Program-made: the position numbers and the translations under genes
The notes under the pieces: model-generated
Seen by the model: the letters and a program-made list of their open reading frames with translations, nothing else
Database searches by the model: none
What the model was told of the DNA's origin: nothing
From: an uncultured Clostridia bacterium
GTDB lineage: Bacteria > Bacillota > Clostridia > Oscillospirales > Ruminococcaceae
Reading direction: 5' to 3'
Assembly (NCBI GenBank): GCA_947629785.1
Contig: CANRFB010000018.1
Location: forward strand, 1 to 42,770
DNA: 42,770 bases
Shown: in pieces, positions 6,864 through 25,403 of the stretch
How positions within the stretch are numbered: position 1 is the first letter of the stretch
How the letters are laid out: each line of letters begins with the position of its first letter

Positions 6864-6874
6864 CGTACCGTGAT

Positions 6875-7239: not shown

Positions 7240-7245
7240 TATTTT

Positions 7246-7305: not shown

Positions 7306-7356
7306 TTTACACTGTAAATAAACACATTTACTGATTAGGTCTTCAAAACCTTTCGC

Positions 7357-7376
7357 AAAGTATACTCTTTTGCGAA
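7357..7376 (+). repeat. Inverted repeat IRL of the recombinase cassette (candidate crossover site)
   Basis: This 20-bp sequence is the perfect reverse complement of 8730-8749. With its flank (7351-7377) it forms a near-palindromic core, arms TTTCGCAAA and TTTTGCGAAA around GTATACTC. This is the usual form of a tyrosine-recombinase core: two arm sites and a 6-8 bp exchange region. The exchange region is inverted relative to the partner site, so recombination would invert the DNA between them rather than excise it. Confidence 0.75.
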
Positions 7377-7402
7377 AAGCAACGACACACCAATTTTTAT
7401 AT

Positions 7403-7431
7403 ATTTTAACATATTATGACATAGTTGTCAA
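7403..7431 (-). promoter_or_regulatory. Strong outward promoter inside the invertible cassette
   Basis: On the minus strand TTGACA (7431-7426), 17 nt, and TAAAAT (7408-7403), preceded by TG as an extended -10. The start would be near 7396, and transcription leaves the cassette leftward across IRL, where no sense gene lies. If the DNA between the inverted repeats were flipped, the same promoter would read right into tadZ with a leader of about 75 nt. The -35 overlaps a small inverted repeat, TGAC-N6-GTCA, that could bind a regulator. Confidence 0.7.
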
Positions 7432-7515
7432 TATGCAAAATATATAATTTTTTTAACATACACTGTTGGCAGACAGCTAATATCACAAAAGTATTGTAAT
7501 TTTGCAAGCCAAAAG

Positions 7516-7533
7516 CCGTCAAAATTACCGTCA
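7516..7533 (+). repeat. Direct repeat before the recombinase gene (possible arm site)
   Basis: CCGTCAAAATTACCGTCA recurs as 8667-8684 just after the gene with two mismatches. Each copy contains CCGTCA/CGTCA twice. Paired direct repeats flanking an integrase gene resemble the arm-type sites bound by the N-terminal domain of Tn916-like integrases. A role in recombinase binding or autoregulation is inferred. Confidence 0.45.
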
Positions 7534-7556
7534 AAAATTTAAAGGAGAGTTTGGAT

Positions 7557-8654
7557 ATGGCAAAAAAAGGAGAAAATATTTACAAGCGAAAAGATGGTCG
7601 TTGGGAAGGACGGTATAAAAACGGTTTCAAACCTGACGGCAAAACAAAATACTCCTCCGTTTACGGGAAAAGTTACTTGGAAGTTCGTTCCATTATATGC
7701 CAAAAAAGGCTTCAGCTTCAGGATAATGCGCCCGTTTGCAGCCTGAAATTCAGCGAACTTGTCATAATGTGGCTTAAAGCTATACGCAATAACGTCAAAG
7801 AGTCAACCTATGCAAATTATCTTATGAAAGTACGCAAGCATATTATTCCAAATATAGGAAATATCCTTTATAAAAATCTGACGGTTCAAAATCTTAATGA
7901 TTTTGTTGCACAGCGCATTTCAAGCGGCTTATCGGTAAAATACACTGCCGATATTGTCATTCTTATCAAATCAGTAACCAAATTTGCTCATCGCCGGTTC
8001 GGATATACTGATATAGCCGAATCCTTGTATTTACCAAAAGATGGAAAGCCAATCGGAAAGCGTTTGCTTACAGATGCGGAACTTGATATTCTGACATCAA
8101 ATCTGCTGAACAACATCAACCCCAGCAATGCGGGTATACTTTTATCGTCTGTTACGGGTATAAGGATAGGCGAACTTTGTGCGCTGAAATGGTCTGACAT
8201 TGACTTTGAAAAAAGTATAATTACCGTCAGAAAAACTTTACAGCGCATAAGCGACAATGAACATTCAACAAAAATAATTGTGACCTCCCCAAAAAGCAGT
8301 ACGTCAATCCGCGAGATACCCATACCCGATATACTTATCCCACACTTAAAAAATATCAGAGCCGATGGCAATAGTTATTTTCTGACAGGTACGGAAAAGT
8401 TTATTGAACCCCGTACAATGCAGTACAGGTTCGCGGCTATTCTCAGAAAACTAAAACTTCCCGAAGTGACTTTTCATTCATTAAGGCATATGTTTGCAAC
8501 TAAATGCGTTACCATCGGGGTAGACGTAAAAACACTTTCTGAAATTCTTGGACACAGTTCGGTAAAAATAACGCTTGACAGATATGTACATTCATCTTTA
8601 GAAAGAAAACGTAATTGTATGAAATTGGTTTCCGACAGCATAAATGTGATATGA
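7557..8654 (+). CDS. Tyrosine recombinase (Tn916-integrase-like), probable invertase
   Basis: A 365-residue site-specific recombinase. The start KKGENIYKRKDGRWEGRYKNG is an AP2-like arm-binding domain of Tn916-type integrases, followed by a SAM-like core-binding domain (about residues 60-150) and a catalytic domain with R203 (TGIRIGE), H307xxR310 (HSLRH), H333 (LGHSS) and nucleophile Y343 (DRYVH). All catalytic residues are present, so it should be active. AAAGGAG at 7541-7547 fits ATG 7557 (9 nt) better than the in-frame TTG at 7551. The gene lies alone between perfect 20-bp inverted repeats, with no excisionase, relaxase or other mobile-element gene nearby. That suggests a dedicated DNA inversion switch for the pilus locus rather than an integrated element. 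A relic of an ICE is the main alternative. Confidence 0.88.
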   Translation: MAKKGENIYKRKDGRWEGRYKNGFKPDGKTKYSSVYGKSYLEVRSIICQKRLQLQDNAPVCSLKFSELVIMWLKAIRNNVKESTYANYLMKVRKHIIPNIGNILYKNLTVQNLNDFVAQRISSGLSVKYTADIVILIKSVTKFAHRRFGYTDIAESLYLPKDGKPIGKRLLTDAELDILTSNLLNNINPSNAGILLSSVTGIRIGELCALKWSDIDFEKSIITVRKTLQRISDNEHSTKIIVTSPKSSTSIREIPIPDILIPHLKNIRADGNSYFLTGTEKFIEPRTMQYRFAAILRKLKLPEVTFHSLRHMFATKCVTIGVDVKTLSEILGHSSVKITLDRYVHSSLERKRNCMKLVSDSINVI

Positions 8655-8666
8655 AAATTTTCTTAA

Positions 8667-8684
8667 CCGTCAGAATTATCGTCA
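8667..8684 (+). repeat. Direct repeat after the recombinase gene (possible arm site)
   Basis: CCGTCAGAATTATCGTCA matches 7516-7533 at 16 of 18 positions in the same orientation and lies between the recombinase stop and inverted repeat IRR. With its partner it is positioned like an integrase arm-binding site. Confidence 0.45.
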
Positions 8685-8729
8685 TATGATAATAATATTT
8701 ATTTCACGGAAATATGAAAAAGTAAATTA

Positions 8730-8749
8730 TTCGCAAAAGAGTATACTTT
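8730..8749 (+). repeat. Inverted repeat IRR of the recombinase cassette (candidate crossover site)
   Basis: TTCGCAAAAGAGTATACTTT is the perfect reverse complement of 7357-7376. It sits 35 nt before the tadZ start codon. Its outer arm (TTTAAGAAA) is degenerate compared with that of IRL, so the two crossover products would differ slightly outside the 20 bp. Confidence 0.75.
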
Positions 8750-8784
8750 AAGAAAATTTATTACATATTTAAGGCGGGTTGAGA

Positions 8785-9825
8785 ATGAAGATAAAGATTG
8801 CAATAGCCGACTCAAACGAAACATATGCTGCAAGACTGTTTGAAGCTTTGCAAAAGCAGGAAAATCTTTCCATTTCTGTTTATACCAATAAGGAAAAAAT
8901 GGAAAAAGAAATAACTTCTGTAAGATACGACATTATATTGTTTGATTATTCCATGTATTCCGGTGATAACTTGTTTAAGAATTCAAAGCTTGCTGTGGCA
9001 CTGTATGATGAGGACGGCGAACTGCCTTCCGGATTTTTGGGTAAATATTCGTTTGTTAAAAAATTCCAGAGAGGCAGTACCATTTATAAGGAAGTTATAG
9101 GCATATATTCGGAATATGTTTCCGACCCGTTTTCAAATTCTACAGGACACTGCAAAGTTATCAGTTTCTATTCTCCGGTAGGCGGAAGCGGCAAAACGAC
9201 CTTATCTTTGTCCATGGCACGATCCGTTGCAAACAAGGGGCGGAACGTTATGTATCTTAATTTTGAATCTATAGCTTCATATGGTGTTTATATGCCGTTG
9301 AAAGGCAGCAAAGGAATGGGCGAATTGATGGCTGCTCTTGATAGCAGCGGAAGTTTCAGTCTCAAGCTCGAAAGCCTTATGAAAAAAACTCCGCAGGGCA
9401 TTATTTATTTTGAAAAATTCGAGAACATACTTGATATTTATGAGATAACTTCCGAGGATATCGAAAAACTTATCCGCAAGATCAATGAAACCGGAACGGC
9501 GGATTACATTATTATTGACATGAGTACGGGATTTGATCCGCTTAATCGCAGTATTCTGGATATTTCAGATAAAATAGTTATGGTAGAAACTCCCAATAAA
9601 ATCGCAAAAGAGAAGATCAAAGCATTTTCCGAACACAGAACGGTAATTCGCGAATATTCCGATAAGATCTGTTCGGTAATAAATTTTTCGCTTGGGACTT
9701 CCGATGTCAGCGCGGCGGGCTACGAAGTTGCAGGGCGCATACCGGAAAAGAAAAGCGATCCGGACGAGCTTGTATCGTATATCAGCAAATATTCTTTGTT
9801 GGATATGGATACGCTGATTTCATGA
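8785..9825 (+). CDS. tadZ: Tad pilus assembly ATPase TadZ/CpaE
   Basis: A 346-residue protein with a receiver-like N-terminal domain (KIAIADSNETYAARLFEAL... YDIILFDYSMY) and a ParA/MinD-type ATPase. The deviant Walker A, SPVGGSGKTT, is at about residues 129-138, followed by IIIDMSTGFDP and a C-terminal MinD-like helix region. TadZ/CpaE places the pilus machine at its site in the cell. The start is ATG 8785, with AAGGCGGG upstream at 8771-8778. An in-frame TTG at 8779 has no room for a ribosome site. It is the first gene of the pilus operon. No recognisable promoter lies between IRR and this start, which matters for the switch model. Confidence 0.85.
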   Translation: MKIKIAIADSNETYAARLFEALQKQENLSISVYTNKEKMEKEITSVRYDIILFDYSMYSGDNLFKNSKLAVALYDEDGELPSGFLGKYSFVKKFQRGSTIYKEVIGIYSEYVSDPFSNSTGHCKVISFYSPVGGSGKTTLSLSMARSVANKGRNVMYLNFESIASYGVYMPLKGSKGMGELMAALDSSGSFSLKLESLMKKTPQGIIYFEKFENILDIYEITSEDIEKLIRKINETGTADYIIIDMSTGFDPLNRSILDISDKIVMVETPNKIAKEKIKAFSEHRTVIREYSDKICSVINFSLGTSDVSAAGYEVAGRIPEKKSDPDELVSYISKYSLLDMDTLIS

Positions 9826-9847: not shown

Positions 9848-11128
9848 ATGATTAGCGGCGATCTTTTCAAGTCAATAACCGTTGATATAAAAAATAAAAT
9901 ACAAGAACTTCCGAACCTTACTCTTATGAGTGACGATGAACTCTATAGCGCTATAGAAGAATTCATGGAGGTAAAGCTTGAAGATCTTGCTTCGTCAGAT
10001 GAAAATTATCGCGGTGAAACGGGTTCCATAACATTTCGTGATAAAAACAGCATAAAAAACAGCGTTTTTGAATCTATACGCGGTCTTGATGTTCTCGGAA
10101 CCATCATTGAGGACAAGACAATAACCGAAGTCATGATAAACGGTTATGATAATATATTCGTTGAACAGAACGGAAAGGTAAAGAAACTTCCGGAAAGATT
10201 TGAAAGTACGGAAGTACTTACCGATATAATCATTAAATTTGTCCGCATGGCAGGACGAAGCGTTGACGAAAGTAATCCTATCGTTGATACAAGGCTTGAG
10301 GACGGTTCTCGTGTAAATGTTGTTCTTCCGCCTGTTGCATTGAACGGTCCGATAGTAACCATCAGACGTTTTCCGCAGGAAGCTATGACTATACAGAAAC
10401 TTCTGGATTACGGCTCCCTTACTCCGGAAGCGGCAGATTTCCTCGAAAAACTTGTAAGAGCAAAGTATAACATATTTGTATGCGGCGGTACGGGAAGCGG
10501 AAAGACAACTTTCCTGAACGCTCTTTCAAATTTTATACCGCAGCATGAAAGAGTTATCACCATAGAAGACAGCGCGGAACTACAGATAAAGAATATACCT
10601 AACCTTGTAAGGCTTGAAACAAAAAATGCAAATTCTGCCGGAAAAGGCGGAATTACAATAAGGGATCTTATCAAATCATCATTGAGAATGAGACCGGAAC
10701 GCATAGTTGTCGGTGAGGTCAGAGGCGGTGAGGCTCTGGATATGCTTCAAGCTATGAATACCGGCCACGACGGTTCTCTTTCCACGGGTCACGCCAATTC
10801 TTCACATGATATGTTAAGCCGTTTGGAAACAATGGTGTTGAGCGGTTCTCCGGGACTGCCGCTTCCGGCAATACGTCAGCAGATAGCTTCGGCTGTGGAT
10901 ATAATAGTGCATCTGTCAAGACTGCGTGATTTTACAAGAAAAACATTGGAAATTTCGGAAGTTGACAAGATCGACGAACACGGGGATATTATTCTGAACC
11001 CGCTGTTTAAGTTTGAAGAATCACCGGAAAGCACTGTAAGTAAAGTTGTGGGCGGTCTTAAACGTACCGGAAATGAAATGATACACCCGGATAAATTTAT
11101 TAATGCGGGTATTTATAATTACCTTTAA
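9848..11128 (+). CDS. tadA: Tad pilus secretion ATPase TadA/CpaF
   Basis: A 426-residue hexameric secretion ATPase of the GspE/VirB11 superfamily that powers pilin assembly at the inner face of the membrane. Visible motifs are the N-terminal region ITEVMINGYDNIFVEQNGK, Walker A GGTGSGKTT (residues about 213-221), the Asp box VITIEDSAELQI, Walker B with RPERIVVGEVRGGEAL, and the His box STGHANSS. Length and motif spacing are normal for CpaF. A GGAGG-type site lies just before the ATG. It is 22 nt downstream of tadZ in the same transcription unit. Confidence 0.95.
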   Translation: MISGDLFKSITVDIKNKIQELPNLTLMSDDELYSAIEEFMEVKLEDLASSDENYRGETGSITFRDKNSIKNSVFESIRGLDVLGTIIEDKTITEVMINGYDNIFVEQNGKVKKLPERFESTEVLTDIIIKFVRMAGRSVDESNPIVDTRLEDGSRVNVVLPPVALNGPIVTIRRFPQEAMTIQKLLDYGSLTPEAADFLEKLVRAKYNIFVCGGTGSGKTTFLNALSNFIPQHERVITIEDSAELQIKNIPNLVRLETKNANSAGKGGITIRDLIKSSLRMRPERIVVGEVRGGEALDMLQAMNTGHDGSLSTGHANSSHDMLSRLETMVLSGSPGLPLPAIRQQIASAVDIIVHLSRLRDFTRKTLEISEVDKIDEHGDIILNPLFKFEESPESTVSKVVGGLKRTGNEMIHPDKFINAGIYNYL

Positions 11129-11142
11129 ACAGGAGAATGGAT

Positions 11143-11925
11143 ATGAGTAATAAAAACGAAGCCCAAATGCCGGATTATAAAAAATGTGCAATGCCTAAAT
11201 GGCAGCATACCCTTATGTACATAGTTTTTGCGGCGGCAGCAACGGTCATATTGAACATATTTTACAAGAATATGATGATCGCACTGATAATTGCCGTGTT
11301 TATCGCTCCTACATTTGAAAGAGAATTTGCAAGGGCACAGGTAAAAAAACGCAAGAAGAAACTCAGGACACAGTTCTGTGATATGCTTGAAGCAATGAGC
11401 GTTGCATCAAGAGCCGGAAATAATGAACTTAAAGCCCTTGAATCCGCATATCACGACCTTCAGATGACCTATAGCGAAAATACGGATATCATCATCGAAA
11501 TGAAAAACATTATCGACAGAAACAGAAACGGCATCCCGCTGAGAACGCTGTTCAAGGATTTCGGCGAGCGCAGCGGCATAGAGGATATAAAAAGCTTCGG
11601 AGAAATATATGAGATAATCGAAGGAAGAAGCGACAGATTTGCCGATATTATAAAACAGACACAGCAGATAATTTCCGACAAAATAGAGATCGAAGAGGAG
11701 ATAGAAACTGTTCTTACCGCTCCGAAAAGCGAAAATAAGATCATGCTCGTTATGCCGGTCCTGCTTGTTGTGCTGCTTGGCGGTGGTGAAGGAGGAGGAG
11801 GTTTCCTCGACTGGCTCTATGCAGATGAAACTAAATTTTACGGTTTCATAGTAATTTCAATATGTGTAGCTGTTTTCATAGGTGCTTATCTGCTTGGTCA
11901 GAAAATGACTGATATAGATGTATAA
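11143..11925 (+). CDS. tadB: Tad pilus inner-membrane platform protein TadB
   Basis: A 260-residue T2SSF-type membrane protein, the partner of TadC in the platform. Two N-terminal hydrophobic segments (about residues 22-60) are followed by a basic cytoplasmic stretch (RAQVKKRKKKLRTQFCDMLEAMSVASRAGNNELKALESA) typical of TadB, then two C-terminal membrane segments. A glycine-rich GGGEGGGG near residue 220 is unusual. AGGAG at 11131-11135 is too close to an ATG at 11137 and fits the ATG at 11143. The protein is shorter than many TadB proteins. Confidence 0.85.
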   Translation: MSNKNEAQMPDYKKCAMPKWQHTLMYIVFAAAATVILNIFYKNMMIALIIAVFIAPTFEREFARAQVKKRKKKLRTQFCDMLEAMSVASRAGNNELKALESAYHDLQMTYSENTDIIIEMKNIIDRNRNGIPLRTLFKDFGERSGIEDIKSFGEIYEIIEGRSDRFADIIKQTQQIISDKIEIEEEIETVLTAPKSENKIMLVMPVLLVVLLGGGEGGGGFLDWLYADETKFYGFIVISICVAVFIGAYLLGQKMTDIDV

Positions 11926-11937
11926 CGGAGGCAAAAT

Positions 11938-12996
11938 ATGGCAACTTTACTGCTGATAATAGCTGTTATAATTACGATAGCTTGGATATATCTGGCGATA
12001 AATATTACAAAAGATGATGTTGTTGAAATAACTATTGCAAAAAGAAAAAATGCCGCTGCAAATGTAAAGCGTATAACTAAGGAAGAACGTAAAAAGATAG
12101 CTGCGCTTATAAAAAGCGGAAGTGATGAAGATGGCAAGGACGTCAAGAAAATACAAAAAAAATATGCCAAGAAGATAGCTGAAGCGCAGAAAAATTTTGA
12201 AAAGGCAAATAATTCCGCACCGGGCATCATGGATATAATGCCTGCTTGCGGGTATGTGGTAATGAGAAAGTTCGGATTCAATGCCGATAATAAGATGTTC
12301 CGTCAACTTGTGGACAATTTTACGCGCACAGACGGTAAGGAAAATGCTTTTGTAAGAGCAAAGCATTTGTTTGCATCAACAATATCATATGCAGTAATAG
12401 GAGTTATGGTAGATGCTTCTGTTATATCAATAATGATGAGCATGGAAAATGAGGATGCTGCTTTAATGGGACTGATAATTTTGATCCTTGTGGCAGTAGT
12501 ATGTTACATTCCTCTCAGTAACCTCAGACAGGAAGCACAGTATCGTGAAGAACGAATTGAGGCGGAATTTCCTAACGTTGTTTCAAAACTTGCTATGCTG
12601 ATAAATTCGGGAATGGAAGTTTCAAAGGCTTGGGAACTGACTGCAAATTCTTCGGAAGATGTTCTTTATGAAGAAATGCAGGTCGTTGTCGCATTACAAG
12701 ACAGCAACGTCAGTCCGGCAAGTGCTTACACACAATTTATGAACAACTGCAATAATAAATATACGTCCAAACTTGCAACGTCCATAATGCAGAACCTTTC
12801 AAAGGGCAACGAGGAAATAGGCTTGCTTTTTATGCAGATGTCAAGCGAGAGCTGGATGGAACGCAAGCATAATGCCAAGCGGCTCGGAGAAAAGGCACAG
12901 TCAAACTTGCTTATTCCAACGATTATGATATTTCTTGGAATAATGGTTTTGGTCATTGTGCCTATATTCGCAGATATGGGCGGCACATTTGGATAA
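11938..12996 (+). CDS. tadC: Tad pilus inner-membrane platform protein TadC
   Basis: A 352-residue protein with a membrane segment at the very N-terminus, a long charged region (KKIQKKYAKKIAEAQKNFEKA, about residues 65-90), a pair of membrane segments about 145-200, and the T2SSF domain (EAEFPNVVSKLAMLINSGMEVSKAWELTANSSEDVLYEEM). It ends in a further membrane segment, LLIPTIMIFLGIMVLVIVPIF. It pairs with TadB to form the platform through which TadA acts. GGAGG lies before the ATG, 12 nt after the tadB stop. Confidence 0.85.
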   Translation: MATLLLIIAVIITIAWIYLAINITKDDVVEITIAKRKNAAANVKRITKEERKKIAALIKSGSDEDGKDVKKIQKKYAKKIAEAQKNFEKANNSAPGIMDIMPACGYVVMRKFGFNADNKMFRQLVDNFTRTDGKENAFVRAKHLFASTISYAVIGVMVDASVISIMMSMENEDAALMGLIILILVAVVCYIPLSNLRQEAQYREERIEAEFPNVVSKLAMLINSGMEVSKAWELTANSSEDVLYEEMQVVVALQDSNVSPASAYTQFMNNCNNKYTSKLATSIMQNLSKGNEEIGLLFMQMSSESWMERKHNAKRLGEKAQSNLLIPTIMIFLGIMVLVIVPIFADMGGTFG

Positions 12997-13024
12997 TTTA
13001 TCAGAAAGGAGGAGTTTGTTGGTT

Positions 13025-13282
13025 ATGAATATTAATAGTCTTACTACACTCGCATATATTAAAGCTTCCATGGCAATGGACAATATAAAAGCTATTATCA
13101 AAGGGGAAGCAGACTCATTCAGCAACGATGAACGCGGCGTTGAAGGCTTTGTTGTTGCTTTGATACTTGTTGGTATAGCAGCAATTGTAGCTGTATTTTT
13201 TAAAGACCAATTAATTGGTCCAAATGGACTTATAACTCAACTTATAAACAAAATTATTAAGCAATTGGAGTTAGATAAGTAA
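13025..13282 (+). CDS. flp: Flp-type major pilin (prepilin)
   Basis: An 85-residue class IVb prepilin and the likely main subunit of the Tad pilus. A hydrophilic leader of about 43 residues ends in NDERG, followed by the hydrophobic helix VEGFVVALILVGIAAIVAVFF, then KDQL and a short tail, as in clostridial Flp proteins. The prepilin peptidase at 18022 should cut after the glycine. The usual Glu at +5 is Val here, with Glu at +2 instead. AGGAGG at 13007-13012 could also serve in-frame TTG codons at 13016 or 13019, so the exact start is uncertain. A strong hairpin with a T-run follows at 13295-13346, which should boost pilin over the downstream genes. Confidence 0.85.
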   Translation: MNINSLTTLAYIKASMAMDNIKAIIKGEADSFSNDERGVEGFVVALILVGIAAIVAVFFKDQLIGPNGLITQLINKIIKQLELDK

Positions 13283-13294
13283 GTAAGTAATTTT

Positions 13295-13346
13295 GCGGCT
13301 GCACTGTTTATTATTGCAGTTGTTAAGTGCAGCCGCGTATTTTTTT
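13295..13346 (+). terminator. Intra-operon terminator/hairpin after the pilin gene
   Basis: GCGGCTGCAC (13295-13304) and GTGCAGCCGC (13327-13336) form a perfect GC-rich 10-bp stem with a 22-nt loop, followed by GTAT and a run of T to 13346. It would terminate part of the transcription after flp, or protect the mRNA 3' end, giving much more pilin than minor components. Confidence 0.8.
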
Positions 13347-13382
13347 AACAAAAATATATACAAAAGGAAGGCAATTAAAAAT

Positions 13383-14033
13383 ATGGCAATCAGAAAAAAT
13401 GAACGCGGATATTTAATGATCGAAGCAGCCATAGTATATCCCATGTTGATGGTGATAGTTGTATTCTTTTTGTATATACTTATGCTTACGGCTCAGAGGG
13501 CGCAAATGATTTCTGCGGCAGAACAGACTATGGTTTATGTGAAATATGTATGCGCAGGGCATTACAGCGTTTACGATGGCGGAGAATTAAATTATTCGAT
13601 CACCGATAATTTGGAACTGCCTGAACCGAGCCTTTATAATGTTTATGCGACTTTGACAGATACTCCATCATCACGTGCGAAAGAACTCAACAGCGGAGAT
13701 GGAGTGAAGAACATCTTTAATAGATATATTAAATCTCCTTTGCTCGGAAATGTTGATAAAAACTATAATGTACACATGGACGTACATAATTATGTTCTTT
13801 TTACGGAAATCGACCTTACCGTTGAATATAAACTGAATAAATTTCTGAATTTTTCATTTATAGGCGGCGAAGCGTTCAATGAACCTACTTTCAAGATAGA
13901 ATTACAGGGTGTTGTTACCGACAATACATCAAATATAAGAATGATGCAATATATTGATTATTTTACCGAAGTATCGGGGATCGACAAATCGATCGGCGAA
14001 GTGAAAAATAAAATAAAAGGCTGGTTTAAATAA
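13383..14033 (+). CDS. tadE: TadE-like minor pseudopilin
   Basis: A 216-residue protein starting MAIRKNERGYLMIEAAIVYPMLM. This is a short leader, a cleavage glycine, Glu at +5 and the hydrophobic helix of TadE pseudopilins, followed by a largely beta extracellular part. It is probably processed by the peptidase at 18022 and acts in pilus initiation or as a minor subunit. The frame extends upstream through the pilin terminator hairpin, but AGGAAGG at about 13365-13371 supports ATG 13383. A second TadE-like protein is encoded at 17111. Confidence 0.8.
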   Translation: MAIRKNERGYLMIEAAIVYPMLMVIVVFFLYILMLTAQRAQMISAAEQTMVYVKYVCAGHYSVYDGGELNYSITDNLELPEPSLYNVYATLTDTPSSRAKELNSGDGVKNIFNRYIKSPLLGNVDKNYNVHMDVHNYVLFTEIDLTVEYKLNKFLNFSFIGGEAFNEPTFKIELQGVVTDNTSNIRMMQYIDYFTEVSGIDKSIGEVKNKIKGWFK

Positions 14034-14050
14034 AATCGGGAGGAAAAATC

Positions 14051-17000
14051 ATGTTGAAATTTATGTACGATCATAAAGGAAATCTTTCGATATTTACATT
14101 GATAATACTTATACCTGTAATGGTCATTTCAGGTATACTCATTGACTTTGCAAGACTTAACGCAATTAAAGCACAGTCTGCTGCCGTAGCTGAAACATAT
14201 GCTAATTCCTATCTTAGCGTATATGATGAGCTTTTCAATGAACTTTACGGGCTTTTTTCTATTTCAGACACAAAAGAGGGGAAAGCAGCACTTGAAGCAC
14301 TTGAAGGTTATATGCAGGCGGCTTATTCTCCCAACAGCAACAAAGTACAAGGAATACTCGGAGAACAAAAAGAAGGCTCAACATGGGCAAGAGGAAACGA
14401 GCAAGTAACAAAAGCTATTGACAATCTTCTAAAAAAATCAGAAAATTTGCCGGATGATGCACTTTCTCTCATGGGAAGCGGTCTTGCCGGAATTGACGTA
14501 ACAGAATTAAGACCGCTTGTATCAGACGGCAATTATGATGCACTGCAAATGCAGATATCCGAATATGTTAAATTTATAGGTCCCACTGAACTTGCGTTCA
14601 ATGTAGGCGGAAAAGTTGCAGATATGCTGAAAACGCAGAATGCAGCTGAAAATCAAGAGGCAAAAGATGTTGCAAACGCTCTTGACGATTCGGGTAAAAA
14701 TCTGGAATTCATTCAGGAGAAGCAACGAGTTGACAACAAAATAGCAGATATAAATGTAGCAATAAAAGACCTTGCAGAAAGCATGGGTAATTACGAAAAA
14801 AAGGTATCAGAACTTTACAATTCAATAAAAGGTTTTGTCGGAGATGAAGTCAATTCATATTCTAATGCAATAAAGTCGACCGAAAGTGCTTACAACAAAT
14901 TCAAGGCTGTACTTACAAATGTAAAATATATAGATCCTGTTTCAAGTACGAGCGGGGAAGAGGAAGAAGGGAGATTGACTTCTCTTGATGATACGGATAA
15001 AAAGGCTTTATCCGCTTTGTTTGACCGGTACACTACACCTGTCGGGGATTATTATGATAAAGTAGGAAGATATTATTCCTACGAAGACAATATGTTTTTA
15101 AATGCCGGCTCTTTTCGTGATACAGGAGCCATTAAAAGTTACGGAAATGTTGCACTGAAAGTTGCTGAATTAGATGCTGCAATAGTAGATCTAAAACTTA
15201 AAGCAGAGTCGCTTAATGGTATCTATAATGGTATAGAACAGGATATAAAAAAACTGATAGATCATGCTCGTGAACTTGAAAATGAAGGTTCTCTCGAAGA
15301 AGGCTTTACAGACCAGTTGGAAAATGGTGAGTACAAGGCACTTCTTGAACCTGATTCCGATAACCCGCTTTACTACATCAAACAATACGATTTTTATCAA
15401 TTGTCACTTAATATTTTGGCTTATACTAATAACGTTATAGATAAAATACTTACTGCAGCACTTTTTGTGTTTACGGGTGATGGCGCAACTTTAGGTTTTG
15501 ATCTTATGTTTATCGGCGATTTTAAGGGCTTATCAACATATGATCTATATCTTGAGAGCACATATGATGATCTTAAGGAATTAAAAAAATATTTATGCGA
15601 TAGTAATAAAAATTTATCAGATCCTGAAGTTGTGAGATTGATAAAAAAGCTGAAACTCTCTAATAATGCAGCTGTACAAAATGATACAACTAACAAATTT
15701 GAGTTAATAACAGGTACTTCTTTCAGCCAAAAATCCAATAAGGAAAATGCTTATCTTCTTAGCAGCAGCACAAAGCTTGATAATTTTTATAAAAAATTTG
15801 AGGATGGTTCGGAAAATAAACTTAATTTTGGCACAGAAATGAAAAATATGTACAAAACATTGAAATCGTATAATGTTACTATTGAGGGAACAGAAAAACA
15901 AAAGGAAAAGCAGAAAAATATAAACAAACTTACATCAGCTTTAGAGAGCTTATATAATACGCTTACTTCTCCGGCGATCCCACGCTGCAGCAGAATACTT
16001 CCGGAAAATATTTCGTCTGTCGGGGCTATGAACAAAAGTGCATCCGTTGATTTTAAAAATGTTGCAAATGGCGGAGATAGTATTCCGTCGATCCAGAACT
16101 GGGGTCTGGATTTTGAAAATAAGATAATGCTTATGATGTATAATTACGGTATGTTTACCTGCCAGACAAGCGATAAAAAATTTGATGAGAGCGAAAATAA
16201 AATTAAAGTTGAAGCCCCCGTGTCATATCAGGGGATCACAATGGCAAAAGACAGCGGAAACGGACTTGAGATAGACGGTTGTGATGTTTCTGATACAAAT
16301 TTTATGCTTTACGGTGAATTGGAATACATTCTTTGCGGAAATCGCAAATATTCTGATAATTTCTACACTGTTGTGGGAATTCTGGCGCTGCTTAGATTTG
16401 TACCGAACTATCTGAGTACATATAAAATAACCGCAATTGACAATATTGCTGTAGGTATAAGAAGTGCGCTTTCATGGTGTCCGATCGCTGCAATAGCTGC
16501 GGAACAACTTTTCAGAGTTGTAATAGCCGGACTTGAAAGTTACGCGGATCTTGCGCTTTTGTATCAAGGACGCGCAGTGGCATTTTTTAAGCGTTCGGCT
16601 TCGGATCTTTCAATGATGGAATTAATTGACAGCGCCGCAAAGGATTTCACAGACGCCGGATTCAGTCTTGATGAACTCAAAAATGATTCAAAAACTCAAG
16701 GCAGCGATGGGAATAATTTTAAGATCACTTACTCACAATATCTGCTTATAGCAACGTTGCTTTTTGTAAATCAAGATACTATGATAAAACGAACGGCTGA
16801 TCTTATAGAGGTAAATATGAACTATGTTATCAATAGCAATATTGGTCATGACCCTGAAGGACTTGAAACTATTAACATGAGTGGTGAAGACGCATTCCTA
16901 CTCAGCAATGCAAATACTGCTGTTGCAGTAACAGTTTACGGTAAAAAAGATCTCATGTTTGTAGGTGATATGGGTACAAGCGTTTTCAACACTTCCGGCG

Positions 17001-17098
17001 ATGAGTATGCTGAAGTGAACGATTTTGCAAGAAGTATGGTCAGTGATACAGATAGATACAATAATACATTCAAATATACTGTTGTAAGAGAATACTGA
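14051..17098 (+). CDS. Very large TadG-like pilus-associated protein
   Basis: A 1015-residue protein. The N-terminus DHKGNLSIFTLIILIPVMVISGILIDFARL is a TadE/TadG-type membrane helix, with Phe in place of the +5 Glu. The remainder is predicted extracellular, with long helical, coiled-coil-like stretches (about residues 195-300 and 345-420), and possible additional hydrophobic helices near residues 455-480, 775-795 and 805-840. It is far longer than the classical TadG. GGGAGG gives a good ribosome site. It lies between two TadE-like genes, so a structural role in the pilus base or tip is likely. The specific function is unknown. Confidence 0.7.
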   Translation: MLKFMYDHKGNLSIFTLIILIPVMVISGILIDFARLNAIKAQSAAVAETYANSYLSVYDELFNELYGLFSISDTKEGKAALEALEGYMQAAYSPNSNKVQGILGEQKEGSTWARGNEQVTKAIDNLLKKSENLPDDALSLMGSGLAGIDVTELRPLVSDGNYDALQMQISEYVKFIGPTELAFNVGGKVADMLKTQNAAENQEAKDVANALDDSGKNLEFIQEKQRVDNKIADINVAIKDLAESMGNYEKKVSELYNSIKGFVGDEVNSYSNAIKSTESAYNKFKAVLTNVKYIDPVSSTSGEEEEGRLTSLDDTDKKALSALFDRYTTPVGDYYDKVGRYYSYEDNMFLNAGSFRDTGAIKSYGNVALKVAELDAAIVDLKLKAESLNGIYNGIEQDIKKLIDHARELENEGSLEEGFTDQLENGEYKALLEPDSDNPLYYIKQYDFYQLSLNILAYTNNVIDKILTAALFVFTGDGATLGFDLMFIGDFKGLSTYDLYLESTYDDLKELKKYLCDSNKNLSDPEVVRLIKKLKLSNNAAVQNDTTNKFELITGTSFSQKSNKENAYLLSSSTKLDNFYKKFEDGSENKLNFGTEMKNMYKTLKSYNVTIEGTEKQKEKQKNINKLTSALESLYNTLTSPAIPRCSRILPENISSVGAMNKSASVDFKNVANGGDSIPSIQNWGLDFENKIMLMMYNYGMFTCQTSDKKFDESENKIKVEAPVSYQGITMAKDSGNGLEIDGCDVSDTNFMLYGELEYILCGNRKYSDNFYTVVGILALLRFVPNYLSTYKITAIDNIAVGIRSALSWCPIAAIAAEQLFRVVIAGLESYADLALLYQGRAVAFFKRSASDLSMMELIDSAAKDFTDAGFSLDELKNDSKTQGSDGNNFKITYSQYLLIATLLFVNQDTMIKRTADLIEVNMNYVINSNIGHDPEGLETINMSGEDAFLLSNANTAVAVTVYGKKDLMFVGDMGTSVFNTSGDEYAEVNDFARSMVSDTDRYNNTFKYTVVREY

Positions 17099-17110
17099 TG
17101 AGGTGAGACA

Positions 17111-17989
17111 ATGATTTTTTCTTCCGATAATGAAAAAGGCGCATTGTTTGTTGAAGGTGCAATTGTTCTTCCTATGATCATGATACTTATGATGATATTC
17201 ATGTACATGGTAAATATTTTTGTTGTACAGACTTATATACAATATGCTTTGAATCAGACAGTATCTGAACTCGGCAACTATACCGAATATCTTAATTATC
17301 TTGGTATAATTGACATTAGTAATGACATTAACAGCAATTTAAAAAAAGCAAGCATAACTTCACAGGATAACATAAAAAAAGTTTCTGATACTTTTAATGG
17401 GATCGTTGGTATGTTTAATGAAAATGACAATTTAGAAAATTCCGAGGCTTCAACTCCTATCAATTGGAATACGTTGTTCAGCAGCAGCGGAACCGTTCAG
17501 GAATTTTATTCAATGGCGACCGAATATAAAAATAAACCGTTCAGTTTGCTTGTACAATTGATCTCAGGGCCGGGTATATCTCTTGCAGATGGAGTACATC
17601 AGTATCTTGGAGCCGCTCTCGGAAAAATGATGATGTTCAAATATGCTGATAATGATATGATCAAAAATTTAGGTGTGGTGTCATGCGATTATAATGGTTA
17701 CAGTTCCGCCGGATATTTGGAAGGCATTGACGGTCTTGATTTTTCAGGCTCAAGCTTTCTTGGAAATGAAGATAGCAGGATAATTGATATAATCGTTGTT
17801 TACAGAATAAAATTCCCTGTAAATATTGCAAGATTTGCAGGCGCTGATGAAGGAAGTAAATTATATAATAATTCTTTATGTGTTGTTCAGCGTGCCACAG
17901 GGTATGGCTGGATAAACGGTGATGGCAAGGCGAAAGGCAGCTATAACGGAAAAGATAAAAAAGGATTAATGAATTCATTGATAAATTAA
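17111..17989 (+). CDS. Second TadE-like minor pseudopilin
   Basis: A 292-residue protein beginning MIFSSDNEKGALFVEGAIVLPMIMILMMIFMYMVNIF. The leader, cleavage glycine, Glu at +5 and hydrophobic helix match TadE-type pseudopilins and resemble the protein at 13383. The extracellular part shows no motif that I recognise. It follows the TadG-like gene by 12 nt in the same operon and is presumably cleaved by the peptidase encoded next. Two TadE-like proteins together with a TadG-like giant suggest a minor-pilin complex at the pilus tip or base. Confidence 0.75.
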   Translation: MIFSSDNEKGALFVEGAIVLPMIMILMMIFMYMVNIFVVQTYIQYALNQTVSELGNYTEYLNYLGIIDISNDINSNLKKASITSQDNIKKVSDTFNGIVGMFNENDNLENSEASTPINWNTLFSSSGTVQEFYSMATEYKNKPFSLLVQLISGPGISLADGVHQYLGAALGKMMMFKYADNDMIKNLGVVSCDYNGYSSAGYLEGIDGLDFSGSSFLGNEDSRIIDIIVVYRIKFPVNIARFAGADEGSKLYNNSLCVVQRATGYGWINGDGKAKGSYNGKDKKGLMNSLIN

Positions 17990-18021
17990 ATTTTTATACG
18001 ATCGGAGAATGTATAAATATT

Positions 18022-18669
18022 ATGAATATACTTATTGCCGCTGCGGCTGCTGTGATATTTTATATTGCTCTTTGCTGTACAATGAACAGGTATTTTGAGA
18101 CCGGGATCAAGCTGCCGGGCTCTCTGATATATTCAGAGAAAAATATTACAATTATTTGTGCCGCGGAAGCAGTAATATCATGCACGGGGCTTTACTTCGG
18201 AACGGACAGCAACTCTTTTTTCAGACTTATATTATTTTATGTACTCTGTATTTTTCTTGCCGCTGCGGCTTTGATCGACATTAAAAAAAGAATAATACCC
18301 AATCGTCTTGTATTTATTCTTTTTTGCGTATGGATATTATATATAGTAATAATGATAATAATATCTTCGGGCAACGGTGTATCCGAACTTATAAATTCTA
18401 TTACCGGAGCAGTTTTTTCAATGTTTGTTTTCGGGATCGGCTATCTCCTTATGAAAAACAAACTTGGCGGCGGAGATGTTAAATTAACGGTGGTTATGGG
18501 ACTTATTCTCACGGGAGACGCTATTTTCGGAGCGCTGATGTATGCGTTGGTGCTTAGTCTAATATTTGCGGCAATTGCTCTTATTTCAAAAAAAATGACG
18601 ATTAAGGATAGTATGCCGTTTGCGCCTTTTTTGTTTTTAGGCACGGCAGCCGCTATTGCTGTAATGTAA
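18022..18669 (+). CDS. tadV: Prepilin peptidase TadV/CpaA (A24 family)
   Basis: A 215-residue polytopic membrane protease of about six helices. The two catalytic aspartates of GxGD aspartic peptidases are D86 in LIDIKKRIIPNRL and D152 in GGGDVKL. It lacks the N-terminal methylase domain of PilD, as expected for TadV. It should cut the Flp pilin and the TadE-like proteins encoded just upstream on the cytoplasmic side of the membrane. GGAGA precedes the ATG by a suitable distance. Confidence 0.92.
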   Translation: MNILIAAAAAVIFYIALCCTMNRYFETGIKLPGSLIYSEKNITIICAAEAVISCTGLYFGTDSNSFFRLILFYVLCIFLAAAALIDIKKRIIPNRLVFILFCVWILYIVIMIIISSGNGVSELINSITGAVFSMFVFGIGYLLMKNKLGGGDVKLTVVMGLILTGDAIFGALMYALVLSLIFAAIALISKKMTIKDSMPFAPFLFLGTAAAIAVM

Positions 18670-18684: not shown

Positions 18685-19992
18685 ATGCAAAAATATAAAC
18701 TTATGCTTATATTGCCGTTTGTTATACTGGTCATTATCGCATTGGGAAATCTCAGTTCCGGCAATGAAGAAGAGGATTTGTTGGCGCAGCAGGAAACTCT
18801 TATCGAGGAAGCAGACGCGTTTGCTGCGGATCAGATATATACCAGAGCATCGGAACGGCTGAAACAGGCTATTGCTTTGAACGTAGGCGATATTGACGGT
18901 ATTGAAGCAAAACTATGTGAATATTACATTGCCGACGAGAATTATAATGACTGGCTTTCACTTGTTGCAAAGCGCATGAGTAAGGCATCGGCTTCCGAAG
19001 CCGAAATAGTTTCGGCAATAGAATATTATCGCGATGAAAAAAAGTATGATAAAATGCTGTCTACAATTGACAGCGGTCTGGAACTTTATCCCGATTCGCA
19101 AAAAATGGTGGAAATAAGAGACTCTCTGATATATTCGTATTCATATTCCGATCTTAAATATGATGATGCGGCTCCGGCGTTCGACGGAAAAAGAGCTGTG
19201 TCTAAAGACGGAAAGTGGGGGTATAGTTTATCAAATAGCGGCAGTCAGTTTGAATTTGATTATGATAAAGCGGTATCATTCTGTGAAGATATGGCTGCGG
19301 TTTACAGTTCGGGACAGGCGATCATGATAGATGATAATATGAAACGTTATTCGGTGTGCCATGACAATACCGTTGATGGTGTATTTATTTATGACGGAAA
19401 TATGGCTGTCCTTACCGCGGGAAGTAAATATGTTTTATGCGACAAGGAAATGGAAATAGTAGGCGAACCTTATGACTTTATCGGAACAATAGCTGATGGT
19501 CTTCGTCCCGTACAAACCGGAGACAAGTGGATGTTCTTGGACGAAAAAGGCAAAAAAACCGATCTGGACGGATATGATGGCATTGCTCTTAATGATAGGT
19601 ATGAAGCCTTTTTTAACAAAATAGCATTTGTTTCGGAAAACGGATCGTATAAAATGATCGGTACTGACGGTGAACCGATAAATGACGCCGTATTTGAGGA
19701 CGCATATCCGTTTATGGAAAAAAATTCATATGCGGCAGTAAAACAAAATAATAAATGGGGATTTGCAAACGAAAAAGGAGAAATAGTTATCCCATGCCAA
19801 TATGATGAGGCAAAGTCATTTTCATACGGATTGGCTGCTGTAAAAACAGGTGATAAATGGGGATATATTGACCGTAACGGCAAGATAATAATACCTGCGG
19901 AATATTTATCGGCGGAACCGTTCAGAGACAGTCAGGCATTGGTAAAGAGTGACGACGGTCTGGGATCGATATTACTTGATTATTATAAATAA
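18685..19992 (+). CDS. Membrane-anchored WG-repeat protein
   Basis: A 435-residue protein. An N-terminal hydrophobic anchor (MLILPFVILVIIALGNL) is followed by a helical, TPR-like segment (about residues 30-150), then repeated beta units with the WG signature: GKWGYSLS, DKWMFLDEKGKKTDL, NKWGFANEKGEIVIP, DKWGYIDRNGKIIIP. WG repeats form beta solenoids or propellers. The function is not established, but such proteins often lie beside clostridial Tad loci. It is probably exposed outside the membrane, where it could bind pilus or wall components (inference). It lies between the prepilin peptidase and the FHA gene, with GGAGA before the ATG. Confidence 0.75.
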   Translation: MQKYKLMLILPFVILVIIALGNLSSGNEEEDLLAQQETLIEEADAFAADQIYTRASERLKQAIALNVGDIDGIEAKLCEYYIADENYNDWLSLVAKRMSKASASEAEIVSAIEYYRDEKKYDKMLSTIDSGLELYPDSQKMVEIRDSLIYSYSYSDLKYDDAAPAFDGKRAVSKDGKWGYSLSNSGSQFEFDYDKAVSFCEDMAAVYSSGQAIMIDDNMKRYSVCHDNTVDGVFIYDGNMAVLTAGSKYVLCDKEMEIVGEPYDFIGTIADGLRPVQTGDKWMFLDEKGKKTDLDGYDGIALNDRYEAFFNKIAFVSENGSYKMIGTDGEPINDAVFEDAYPFMEKNSYAAVKQNNKWGFANEKGEIVIPCQYDEAKSFSYGLAAVKTGDKWGYIDRNGKIIIPAEYLSAEPFRDSQALVKSDDGLGSILLDYYK

Positions 19993-20014
19993 TGTTTTGA
20001 AAGGAATTGATATT

Positions 20015-21373
20015 ATGAATACGGAAGGCTATAAGATCGTAAATTCTCTTGCTAACAATACCTTGCATATTCCTAAAAAACGAGACGGAAGATATGACGA
20101 GCTGGCTTTGAAAATTTTTCGGAATGACTGCCCATATTTTTCTGCTCCGGTAAATGAAGTTACAATAAACGGCGAATCGTTTTTTAAATATGAACTCGGT
20201 AGTTTCAAACCTATAGAAAACTTGATAATGAAAATGTCCGGAAGTGAATTTATCAAGCTTTTGAAAAATCTTATAAATCCTATGATCGAATGTACCGATT
20301 GGATGATCGACAGCCATTATTTCACGTTGACGCCGCAGCTGGTATTTGTAGGTTCTTATGATTATAATGTAAGATATGTATATTCTTTTGATATTGACAA
20401 TTATTGTTCAGATGCTGAAATATCGGCTTTTTTTGCGGATATTATAAAAAATGTACGATTGACGGATTCCGCGGAACTTAATAATATTTTGCTGCGTATG
20501 GTTGTTGACGGAAATGTTTCTGTAGCATCGCTGCTTGACTTGATAAGAAAATATGATGATAAAAGTGCAAGAGATATTCCTGTACAAAAAGAAATCCCGC
20601 CTCAGAAAGAACCTGTACGTCAACCGCAGCGAACCGTTTCCGAGCCAACGAATATACCTGTTCATAAGGAACAGAAAAATGATGTTAAATTTTCTAAGAT
20701 CATACCTAATTCCATAGCTAAGCCCGAAAAGCAAGAACCTAAGCAAGAACCTGCGGAAACAAGATCCGATCCTAACCCGCTTTCATCTGAAAGAGACAGG
20801 GCTATGGAAGAACTTTTCGGCGGGAAAAAGTCCGCTTCCAAGCCGGTTCAGAAATCGAAAGAAAAAAATAAGGAGAAGAACAAGGATTCTATACTGTCTT
20901 TCCTTAAAAAGGACAAGATCGTTCCGAATAAAGGCCCTGCCGCAAGCAGTAATTTTACGGAAATACCCTCAAATGAAGAAACGGTTTTTGCTGGCGCATA
21001 CGATCAGGACGGAGTTACGGAAATTGCCGGTGCAGACCCTTACCTTATTCTTAAAGAAAATAACGGTCCTCTTGACGCTCCGAAAAGAATTGAACTTTCT
21101 TTTGATGCAAACGGCGAAATGTATATAGGCAGGCAGTCGGAAAGTTCAAATTACTTCGGATATAAATTCAGTGCTGATTTTAAAAAGATAAGCCGCCGTC
21201 ATGTGCTTATAAAGCGTGTTGGTTCGGAATATTCCGTGACGGATATGAATTCGGCAAATAAGACGTTTATCAACGGACAAATTATTCAGCCGAATTCGGC
21301 ATACACAATTTCAGACGGGGATAGCATCGTATTCGGCGACAGCTTGTATGTTTATGAATTCAAAGAAATGTAA
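20015..21373 (+). CDS. FHA-domain protein, phosphothreonine reader of the Tad locus
   Basis: A 452-residue cytoplasmic protein. The N-terminal part (about 1-190) matches the domain typical of FHA proteins next to clostridial Tad genes (DUF6382-like, from memory). A long Pro/Lys/Glu-rich linker (about 190-310) contains QEPKQEP and KSKEKNKEKNK. The C-terminal FHA domain (about 368-440) shows the phosphopeptide-binding residues GRQ, SRRH and NKTFING. A TVFAGAYDQDGVTEIAG stretch just before the FHA domain offers threonines that a kinase could modify. AAAGGAA supports ATG 20015, and the frame's longer form overlaps the previous gene. With the adjoining phosphatase and kinase it forms a phosphothreonine signalling set. 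Confidence 0.85.
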   Translation: MNTEGYKIVNSLANNTLHIPKKRDGRYDELALKIFRNDCPYFSAPVNEVTINGESFFKYELGSFKPIENLIMKMSGSEFIKLLKNLINPMIECTDWMIDSHYFTLTPQLVFVGSYDYNVRYVYSFDIDNYCSDAEISAFFADIIKNVRLTDSAELNNILLRMVVDGNVSVASLLDLIRKYDDKSARDIPVQKEIPPQKEPVRQPQRTVSEPTNIPVHKEQKNDVKFSKIIPNSIAKPEKQEPKQEPAETRSDPNPLSSERDRAMEELFGGKKSASKPVQKSKEKNKEKNKDSILSFLKKDKIVPNKGPAASSNFTEIPSNEETVFAGAYDQDGVTEIAGADPYLILKENNGPLDAPKRIELSFDANGEMYIGRQSESSNYFGYKFSADFKKISRRHVLIKRVGSEYSVTDMNSANKTFINGQIIQPNSAYTISDGDSIVFGDSLYVYEFKEM

Positions 21374-21393
21374 TGTTTCGGAGGAGAGCTGCT

Positions 21394-22095
21394 ATGAATT
21401 ACATATATGGAGCTTTCAGTGATATAGGCATTTCCCGTCCGAATAACGAGGACAGCTTTTTTGCGGGAGAATGCAGTACAGATATACCTATTTTTATTGG
21501 TATTGTCTGTGATGGTATAGGCAGTCTTAGAGACGGTGAGGTTGCTTCGGGAAGCATAACTGAAAGCGTAAAGGAATGGACTTTGCATTTAAAGAGCGGC
21601 AGTACGTTTGAACAGGTCACAATGTCATTTTTGGAGCATATTTATGCGCTTAATGAAAAAATATGCCGCCACAGCAAGGTGAATTCACTTGAAACAGGCA
21701 GTACAATGTCCGCCGTAATTGTCAGCGGAGAAAATTTTATGGCAGCAAATGTAGGTGACAGCAGGGTTTATCACATTCTTAAAAAAATCGAACAGGTTAC
21801 GGAAGATGATGTTTTGCCTTCTGACGGAAATAAGCGGGGCGCATTAAGACAATGTATAGGTTTTAATGAGAAATTGTTTATAAATACTTATTACGGACGC
21901 ATAAATAAAAAAGAAAGCCTGCTTGTGTGTTCGGACGGATTTTACAAACAGATGGATCAGAAGCGTATTGCAAAAAAATGCCGTGGTATCAGTCGTCATA
22001 CCAATGTCGGAAAAGTGATCAAAAAGGAAATAGAACGCATGAAAAAATCCGGTGAACGTGATAATATCACTGCGTATATTATAAAGTGCTTATGA
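21394..22095 (+). CDS. PP2C-family Ser/Thr protein phosphatase
   Basis: A 233-residue PPM/PP2C phosphatase. Metal-binding and catalytic motifs are visible: SRPNNEDSFF, VCDGIGSLRDGEVAS, ANVGDSRVYHI, LLVCSDGFYKQM and RDNITAYI. It should remove phosphate from Ser/Thr in targets of the nearby kinase, including perhaps the FHA protein. GGAGGAG at 21380-21386 supports ATG 21394, not the upstream in-frame ATG at 21373 that overlaps the fha stop. Its stop overlaps the start of the tiny frameshifted ORF (22092). Confidence 0.92.
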   Translation: MNYIYGAFSDIGISRPNNEDSFFAGECSTDIPIFIGIVCDGIGSLRDGEVASGSITESVKEWTLHLKSGSTFEQVTMSFLEHIYALNEKICRHSKVNSLETGSTMSAVIVSGENFMAANVGDSRVYHILKKIEQVTEDDVLPSDGNKRGALRQCIGFNEKLFINTYYGRINKKESLLVCSDGFYKQMDQKRIAKKCRGISRHTNVGKVIKKEIERMKKSGERDNITAYIIKCL

Positions 22096-22237
22096 GTAAG
22101 AGAAAAAAATAATAATATTTATTTTTATAATAGTTCTGATATTACTGATCATCATATTCAGGTATCAAATTTATGGATGGTTTGATGACATATTCGGGAG
22201 GATCGGTCCCGGCGGTCTTTTAGATGATTATACATGA
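22092..22237 (+). pseudogene. Small membrane protein with a frameshift in an A7 run
   Basis: ATG 22092 overlaps the phosphatase stop (ATGA), as in a coupled operon gene, but after MSKRKK it meets TAA. One extra A in the run of seven A at 22103-22109 would open a 48-residue protein: MSKRKK, a very hydrophobic helix (IIIFIFIIVLILLIIIF), then RYQIYGWFDDIFGRIGPGG and LLDDYT before TGA 22235. The basic N-terminus, helix and conserved-looking tail indicate a real gene. The break may be a sequencing error, a null allele, a phase-variable homopolymer or a site of polymerase slippage. Confidence 0.5.
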
Positions 22238-22302
22238 AATGCTTTATTTAAGCGGTAATCGTGTTTTCAGCCCGGAGATCATATTAAGTATTGGAGTGTT
22301 TT

Positions 22303-22458
22303 ATGTTGGATCTTTACGGTGAAGAATTGCTGAACGCAGGCATAGTTTTGCTTGTTATACTTCTGATCGCGGCGGCGATATTTTCGGTATATTTCTTTTT
22401 ATCGGGGGCGCGGCTTAAAAAGCGTCTTGAAGATGAATACGGCAAGAAAAATAAGTAG
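22303..22458 (+). CDS. 51-residue single-pass membrane protein
   Basis: A short frame, MLDLYGEELLNAGIVLLVILLIAAAIFSVYFFLSGARLKKRLEDEYGKKNK. It has an acidic outer N-terminus, one membrane helix at about residues 12-33 and a charged cytoplasmic tail. GGAG lies 6 nt before the ATG, and the stop is 11 nt before the kinase start. Compact operon spacing supports it being real. The topology suggests a small partner or regulator of the kinase or the pilus platform. The family is not recognised. Confidence 0.55.
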   Translation: MLDLYGEELLNAGIVLLVILLIAAAIFSVYFFLSGARLKKRLEDEYGKKNK

Positions 22459-22469
22459 CGGGGGATATT

Positions 22470-25358: not shown

Positions 25359-25403
25359 GCGGAAACGCGTGATTCATACAATTAACGGAAAGGAATGTTT
25401 TTT

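Follow-up and report, generated by a model that had tools for sequence, protein, structure and literature searches.

A candidate self-contained invertible promoter cassette with an integrase-type recombinase in front of a Tad pilus locus in an uncultured Clostridia bacterium

In an uncultured Clostridia bacterium of the Ruminococcaceae, the first gene of a Tad pilus locus, tadZ, is preceded by a segment of about 1.4 kb with the anatomy of a self-contained phase-variation cassette: two inverted recombination sites enclose an outward-facing promoter and a tyrosine recombinase gene, which is the only gene between the sites. The segment lies in the stretch analysed here, which we call the window (42,770 nucleotides; contig CANRFB010000018.1 of assembly GCA_947629785.1, positions 1 to 42,770). 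We consider it probable, at roughly 83%, that the segment is indeed such a phase-variation cassette. In the mechanism that we propose, the recombinase would bind the two inverted core sites and invert the intervening DNA, its own gene included, while its N-terminal domain would probably also contact short CGTCA arm repeats. In the current orientation the promoter is directed to the left and the locus would be OFF, save for transcription that may run on into it from the recombinase gene; inversion would bring the promoter to 75 nt before tadZ, directed into the Tad operon, which would be the ON state. That switching takes place at the tad locus itself is something we infer.

The original prediction had placed perfect 20-bp inverted repeats at 7357-7376 and 8730-8749, around a complete tyrosine recombinase gene, and both the repeats and the enclosed gene (7557-8654, + strand) were confirmed in the window sequence. 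The best inverted repeat around the recombinase gene scored 20, against at most 13 in 50 shuffles (for this score, as for the promoter, arm-repeat and 3'-hairpin scores below, the shuffles kept single-base composition only). Two pairs of inverted perfect 20-mers within 2.5 kb were found in the window, against a mean of 0.0 in 30 dinucleotide shuffles; one is the cassette pair, and the second is probably the close-set pair at about 29030-29066, which was listed with a 14-base seed. The 20-bp repeats are embedded in larger sites, in which near-palindromic arms surround a 9-nt spacer, and to which no strand is assigned. The left site (P site, 7351..7377) reads TTTCGCAAA-GTATACTCT-TTTGCGAAA, the middle element being the spacer and the outer two the arms. 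The right site (E site, about 8729..8755) is inverted relative to the left one, and its outer arm is altered to TTTAAGAAA. Spacer and inner arms are identical in the two sites, and the cassette sites of a sister species (G017) match at 26 of 26 bases. An imperfect single arm is also present in other cassettes (L008, L010 and L022), and the same TTTAAGAA letters occur in C69, placed there in the inner arm.

The promoter, TTGACA and TAAAAT separated by 17 nt and with an extended -10, is present as had been described, at 7431-7403 on the minus strand. It now points away from tadZ, and it scored 14.5, against 6.5 for shuffles. By eye, no promoter was visible in the 35 nt between the right repeat and tadZ (8750-8784), again in agreement with the prediction, and the leader expected after inversion, previously put at about 75 nt, was recomputed as 75 nt to the ATG at 8785. 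This ATG is likely to be the start of tadZ, a reading of the sequence that is favoured because a TTG at 8779 is TTA in the sister species. The proposal that the assembled orientation is OFF also held, since the promoter faces left, away from tadZ. The most stable hairpin in the interval from the recombinase stop to the right site scored -7.0, weaker than the -10.9 of one shuffle, so transcription of the recombinase gene may continue into tadZ; in the 68 cassettes in which 3'-end hairpins were scored, 28 had one at or below -9. The window had no Rfam match at the gathering threshold.

The recombinase consists of an N-terminal domain of beta-sheet and helix, a core-binding domain (Phage_int_SAM_3) and a catalytic domain with invariant R203, K246, H307, R310, H333 and Y343, which we take to be the catalytic set. 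Its start is likely to be the ATG at 7557 and not the TTG at 7551, as judged from the sequence and favoured by the N-termini of the family. The protein belongs to the Phage_integrase family and not to the Hin-type serine recombinases; it has the core-binding and catalytic domains of a Tn1549/Tn916-type tyrosine integrase, with the catalytic residues, and its core was closest to the Tn1549 integrase among the folds listed in a fold comparison. A three-strand sheet plus a helix is predicted for the N-terminal domain; Pfam AP2 matched in 4 of 22 family N-termini (best 8.4e-4), and the N-terminal domain alone gave no match among PDB sequences. Putative arm-type binding repeats, CGTCA-N7-CGTCA, lie upstream of the recombinase gene (7517..7533, + strand), and a second putative pair in the same direction lies 3' of its stop codon (8668..8684, + strand). 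Among the 73 related cassettes scored for such repeats, CGTCA-like pairs in one direction and 12 bp apart were found 5' of the gene in 38, against 0.06 expected from shuffles, 3' of the gene in 17 (0.12 expected) and at both ends in 12; pairs in the reverse direction occurred in none of the 73. Two cassettes (L031 and L034) have GGTCA at both ends instead.

These related cassettes form a family, of which the genome of the window (G000; 3.05 Mb in 162 contigs) encodes five recombinases, 55-100% identical and each between inverted sites. The four other than that of the window lie on contigs C49, C58, C69 and C77. A search of this genome for the exact site pattern gave 5 matches, against 0 for its reversed control; with two mismatches allowed the numbers are 17 and 5, so looser site matches are unsafe. 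A third near-match, in contig C11 (3 mismatches), was set aside as chance, having no partner and seeming by eye to lie inside a coding region. Recombinase matches at E <= 1e-30 were found in 17 of 61 genomes, that of the window included. Among the 23 closest rows (E <= 3e-70), all 20 with both flanks readable, the window again included, have inverted sites, whose repeats exceed the shuffled maximum by 5 points or more; two others (L024 and L030) are cut by contig ends and one (L048, G016:C211) was left out. The repeat score around 16 other integrases was 8-12, at most 1 point above their own shuffled maximum.

Further loci came from a scan of one genome per species, in which the best 80 of at least 578 relatives (tblastn E <= 1e-3, so that ordinary integrases may be included) were tested, and from a viral scan that gave 32 loci, 18 of which were tested and 14 (L167-L180) left out. 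Of these 98 loci, 70 pass (62 of those best 80, and 8 viral ones), 3 are cut by contig ends and 25 fail; 8 of the failing loci score 0-2 points above the shuffled maximum, and 6 are the distant viral rows L161-L166. After 10 duplicates had been dropped, 80 distinct cassettes were available, mostly from Clostridia. Named hosts among the 62 include Ruminococcus flavefaciens FD-1, Butyricicoccus pullicaecorum, Blautia glucerasea and Eisenbergiella porci. The 80 cassettes were chosen for their inverted sites, and the frequency of sites is to be read only from the rates among tested loci; 79 of the 80 were scored for promoters, 73 for arm repeats, 79 flanks a side for hairpins, and 78 rows entered the tree. 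In one contig labelled Alistipes, of the Bacteroidota (L111), the recombinase is nearly identical to the Clostridia ones, by transfer or mis-binning.

With all cassettes turned to the strand of the recombinase gene, the promoter is found in the interval that separates this gene from the 5'-side site, and it is directed outward; that it had seemed to change sides between members was an artefact of loci that had not been so turned. The outward sigma-70-like score had a median of 13.5 and exceeded 8 in 92% of 79 cassettes, against 6.6 and 21% in shuffles. At the other, shorter end, the outward score was 5.3 (above 8 in 13% of 67 cassettes). The inward score was 7.0 (above 8 in 34%), barely above shuffles, so the recombinase may be weakly expressed. 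Terminator-like hairpins (free energy, dG, of -11 or below) occur beyond the promoter-side site in 37 of 79 cassettes, against 9 of 79 beyond the other site, as if the promoter in its OFF state met a stop. In the genome of the window, the two sites of each cassette have a common spacer and the spacers differ between cassettes, so each cassette probably flips itself alone.

Evidence that such cassettes do invert came from two pairs in opposite orientation, which compare related genomes and not one strain. In L095 and L098 (two assemblies, with cassettes 88% identical), both flanks are common but swapped. One flank matches over 188 nt at 94.7% from the first base past the site, then over 51 nt at 94%, and continues over 5012 nt at 96.5%, in L098 about 2.4 kb further out; the other is swapped over 906 nt, starting 20 nt from the site in L098 and 2293 nt from it in L095. 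From these offsets, DNA must have been gained or lost beside the cassette on each flank. The first gene on the promoter side of L098 encodes a nucleotidyltransferase (ON), and the first gene on the other side of L095 a UDP-galactopyranose mutase. In L093 and L099 (cassettes 80% identical) both flanks are likewise swapped, one matching over 317 nt (80%) and the other over 499 nt (74%). These two pairs lead us to conclude that the cassette family inverts, and the side on which homologous genes lie, relative to the promoter, varies from cassette to cassette. The idea of a recombinase-driven invertible promoter, with both orientations to be found in related genomes, is thus well supported for the family, by these pairs and by the outward promoters in 92% of the 79 members scored; the two species that have the tad cassette both show it OFF.

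This last result is one of several that weigh against a working switch in front of tadZ. In the sister species G017 the cassette again precedes these tad genes (TadZ 91%) and is again OFF, and no inverted tad cassette was found among the two species that carry it (G000 and G017); the flank to the left of the window cassette is not common to that of G017. Elsewhere in the family, pairs with common flanks in the same orientation outnumber opposite ones (for example L005/L006, L009/L029 and L074/L077), four isolates with an identical cassette have it in one orientation, and, by the direction of the neighbouring genes as given by a crude open reading frame caller, 34 of 80 cassettes are OFF and 11 ON, the rest having genes leaving on both sides (26) or on neither (2) or being uncalled (7). 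The OFF excess and the agreeing pairs suggest that flipping may be rare or biased. Furthermore, the outer arm of the right site is off by two bases, where none is off in that of G017; no hairpin with a T-run was found beyond the left site of the window; and the hairpin search found no clear stop for read-through from the recombinase gene into tadZ. Finally, the remaining 11 failing loci (L085, L086, L102, L123, L127, L133, L135, L140, L153, L155 and L156) score at or below their shuffled maximum though they are not among the most distant, so some relatives are either not such cassettes or cut short.

The two changed bases in the right-site arm, the single orientation shared by both species and the lack of a clear hairpin between the recombinase gene and tadZ would all fit a locked or decayed switch, in which inversion belongs to the past, the tad locus is now fixed OFF or nearly so, and any Tad expression comes from recombinase read-through or from internal promoters. 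We regard this as unlikely, since the spacer and inner arms of the two sites have stayed identical, the recombinase reads as intact with all of its expected catalytic residues, the promoter is near consensus, the sites of the sister species match throughout and imperfect arms are found in other cassettes as well. A different objection comes from mobility. Two loci, G002:C13 (L198, site 3205-3229) and G010:C165 (L199, site 3616-3640), carry a lone full site at a position that in relatives is occupied by a cassette. To the left, the matches are to L070 (511 nt at 72%, stopping 21 nt short of the site) and L023 (2935 nt at 82%, stopping 67 nt short), and to the right, to L028 (327 nt at 69%, starting 175 nt beyond the site) and L022 (226 nt at 72%, starting 7 nt beyond); the first of the two genomes, G002, has no recombinase match at E <= 1e-30. 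Passing from two inverted sites to one needs recombination in direct alignment. The Int protein of Tn1549 requires no homology in the crossover region (PMC5871717), which makes occasional excision or insertion plausible. In the tree of 78 rows (one of which, L117, is an outlier with a branch of 10, probably from a wrong reading frame) the two tad cassettes pair (100/97), and each other paralogue from the genome of the window groups with a cassette from a different genome, which means that the copies are old. The tad pair L005/L006 and the pair L009/L029 are sisters at a common locus, and the sisters L008/L035 have different neighbours, so some movement between loci is possible.

The single-site loci, lying between the same kind of neighbours as cassettes and in one genome without a recombinase match, together with a recombinase core nearest to the enzyme of a mobile element and the differing neighbours of L008/L035, could be read as signs of a minimal, insertion-sequence-like mobile element, whose promoter serves the element and whose effect on tad is incidental. 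Against this, the promoter is conserved in position and direction, homologous genes lie on either side of cassettes and inverted loci exist, and the tree pairs cassettes of the same locus, which is unexpected under frequent hopping. We hold such an incidental role to be quite unlikely, while noting that an element may move and its promoter still switch, both of which can be true. An integrase and attachment-site remnant of an integrative element, with no regulatory role, would explain an integrase-type protein with arm repeats and the presence, near some relatives, of genes that we take to be relaxase-like. An integrated element, however, is flanked by attachment sites in direct orientation and not by inverted ones, the 16 ordinary integrases have no inverted repeats more than 1 point above the shuffled maximum, and the cassette holds a recombinase and a strong outward promoter and nothing more, all of which makes a remnant very improbable. 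Nor does the segment have the size or the transfer genes of a Tn1549/Tn916 conjugative transposon, the recombinase gene being the only one between its sites. We therefore favour a phase-variation cassette as the reading of the tad segment.

A wider proposal is that the family is a distinct, widespread and movable phase switch of Clostridia, self-contained in about 1.4 kb, built on a reduced Tn1549-type integrase, inserting into and leaving a single site, with private spacers, several copies per genome and satellites flipped in trans, and with Tad as one of its outputs; in this full form it is possible but doubtful. The candidate for such a satellite is an element of about 290 bp in the genome of the window (G000:C92, L196, 95-383), with two inverted sites 264 bp apart, start to start, no recombinase between them, and a sequence that by eye resembles a promoter, directed toward what looks from its translations like a glycan-type operon. 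A lone site with one mismatch is found at 34407-34431 of G000:C24, 33 bp from the contig end, and sites near contig ends also occur in C92, C69 and G010:C272, as an assembly of mixed orientations would give.

The presumed target operon begins with tadZ (8785..9825, + strand), followed on the same strand by tadA (9848..11128), two tadB/tadC-like T2SSF genes (11137..11925, below the Pfam cutoff, and 11938..12996), a Flp1-like pilin gene (12956..13282; weak, E 0.009, below the Pfam cutoff) and further pilus-locus genes (13293..18669), among them those for a DUF5702 protein (14051-17098) and an A24 prepilin peptidase (18022-18669). With TadZ, TadA, TadB/C, a Flp-type pilin and a prepilin peptidase, two of these matches being below the cutoff, the locus has the make-up of a Tad pilus locus. 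Genes for a WG-repeat protein, FHA and PP2C proteins, a protein kinase and a large surface-type protein follow at 18685..29021 (+ strand), which we infer to belong to the operon, and the run of same-strand genes extends over 8785-32899. A homologue of this kinase (43% over 965 residues) is encoded by the first gene beside the cassette L126, and L148 has part of a further homologue (56% over 186) next to it. Tad genes beside the other 79 cassette loci (tblastn E <= 1e-6) were found only at L006 of G017. Short dispersed repeats at 6800-6871 and 7194-7303 of the window are common to other contigs of G000 and G017.

Elsewhere the family precedes surface proteins, glycan operons, LytTR regulators and others. 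Pfam searches with 19 chosen first genes identified leucine-rich surface-type proteins (one with a dockerin), an InlB-type repeat protein and LytTR regulators, sugar nucleotidyltransferases, a UDP-galactopyranose mutase and a glycosyltransferase, as well as a helicase, a HerA-like ATPase, condensation and AMP-binding enzymes, a non-specific endonuclease and a binding protein; two of the 19 had no family. The cassette of L109 (CANPYZ010000048.1, about 7673-9265) is flanked by two divergent genes for large surface-type proteins, whose 5' parts, including a region resembling a signal peptide, are near-identical inverted copies of about 181 nt, and it looks like an either/or switch with one promoter. 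The cassettes L007, L008 and L103 have a helicase-like gene in the ON direction, and PADLOC gave partial matches of the L008 and L103 genes to the PbeA and type IV restriction models; a phase-variable defence gene is possible.

Enclosed recombinases are found in the Hin/fljBA switch of Salmonella and in a fimbrial segment of the proteobacterium Providencia stuartii. Because of these two systems, the suggestion that a self-contained cassette of recombinase and promoter ahead of a Tad operon might be undescribed went too far as regards its anatomy, which is known (PMC5903667). Hin lies inside an invertible segment whose promoter drives genes outside it (PMC5903667, PMC9368917), as we propose for the tad cassette, but Hin is a serine recombinase (PMC11868660), whereas the tad cassette has a tyrosine integrase with arm-type repeats and, unlike in the Hin arrangement, a promoter divergent from the recombinase gene. 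The P. stuartii segment, 844 bp between inverted repeats, likewise encloses its recombinase gene and adjoins a fimbrial locus (PMC5903667); it differs in its 14-bp imperfect repeats and in serving fimbriae instead of Tad. Mpi, which the original prediction had grouped with the tyrosine recombinases, is called serine-type in PMC5903667. RecV of Clostridioides difficile shares with our cassette its occurrence in Clostridia, a tyrosine recombinase and invertible control elements, but there one recombinase serves several switches (PMC5903667), while here each switch has its own. Tn1549 and Tn916 integrases move conjugative elements (PMC5871717), and the tad cassette is a 1.4-kb segment with one gene. 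Inverton group 139 of a defined gut community (33 members, 32 of them in Clostridia) is linked to a tyrosine-type integrase, invertase group 35 (PMC11892184), and resembles our family in its mostly Clostridia hosts, a nearby tyrosine-type recombinase/integrase, repeats of about 25 bp in the example given and a read-level shift in orientation (PMC11892184). This example, from Clostridium sp. D5, spans about 257 bp (PMC11892184), too short to enclose a recombinase. A 413-bp inverted-repeat segment at L127 (Drancourtella massiliensis, 9214-9626), which lies beside a family recombinase and not around it, resembles that example.

What appears new is the integrase-type family, its frequency in Clostridia and its placement before a Tad locus, none of which was found in the literature searched; among the papers listed, no Tad locus under an invertible promoter was found either, as judged by titles and abstract openings. 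PhaseFinder-type searches may have a size limit that would miss segments of 1.4 kb. These searches rely on EMBOSS einverted (PMC11892184), and invertible-promoter loci have been reported to be far more common in Bacteroidales than in Firmicutes and other gut taxa (PMC8748976). If even part of the family switches, then pili, surface proteins, glycans and regulators of gut and rumen Clostridia are under many independent on/off controls, each encoded locally. The cassette segments are readily found from sequence, and the single-site loci offer a route to asking how the integrase of a mobile element turns into a phase switch.

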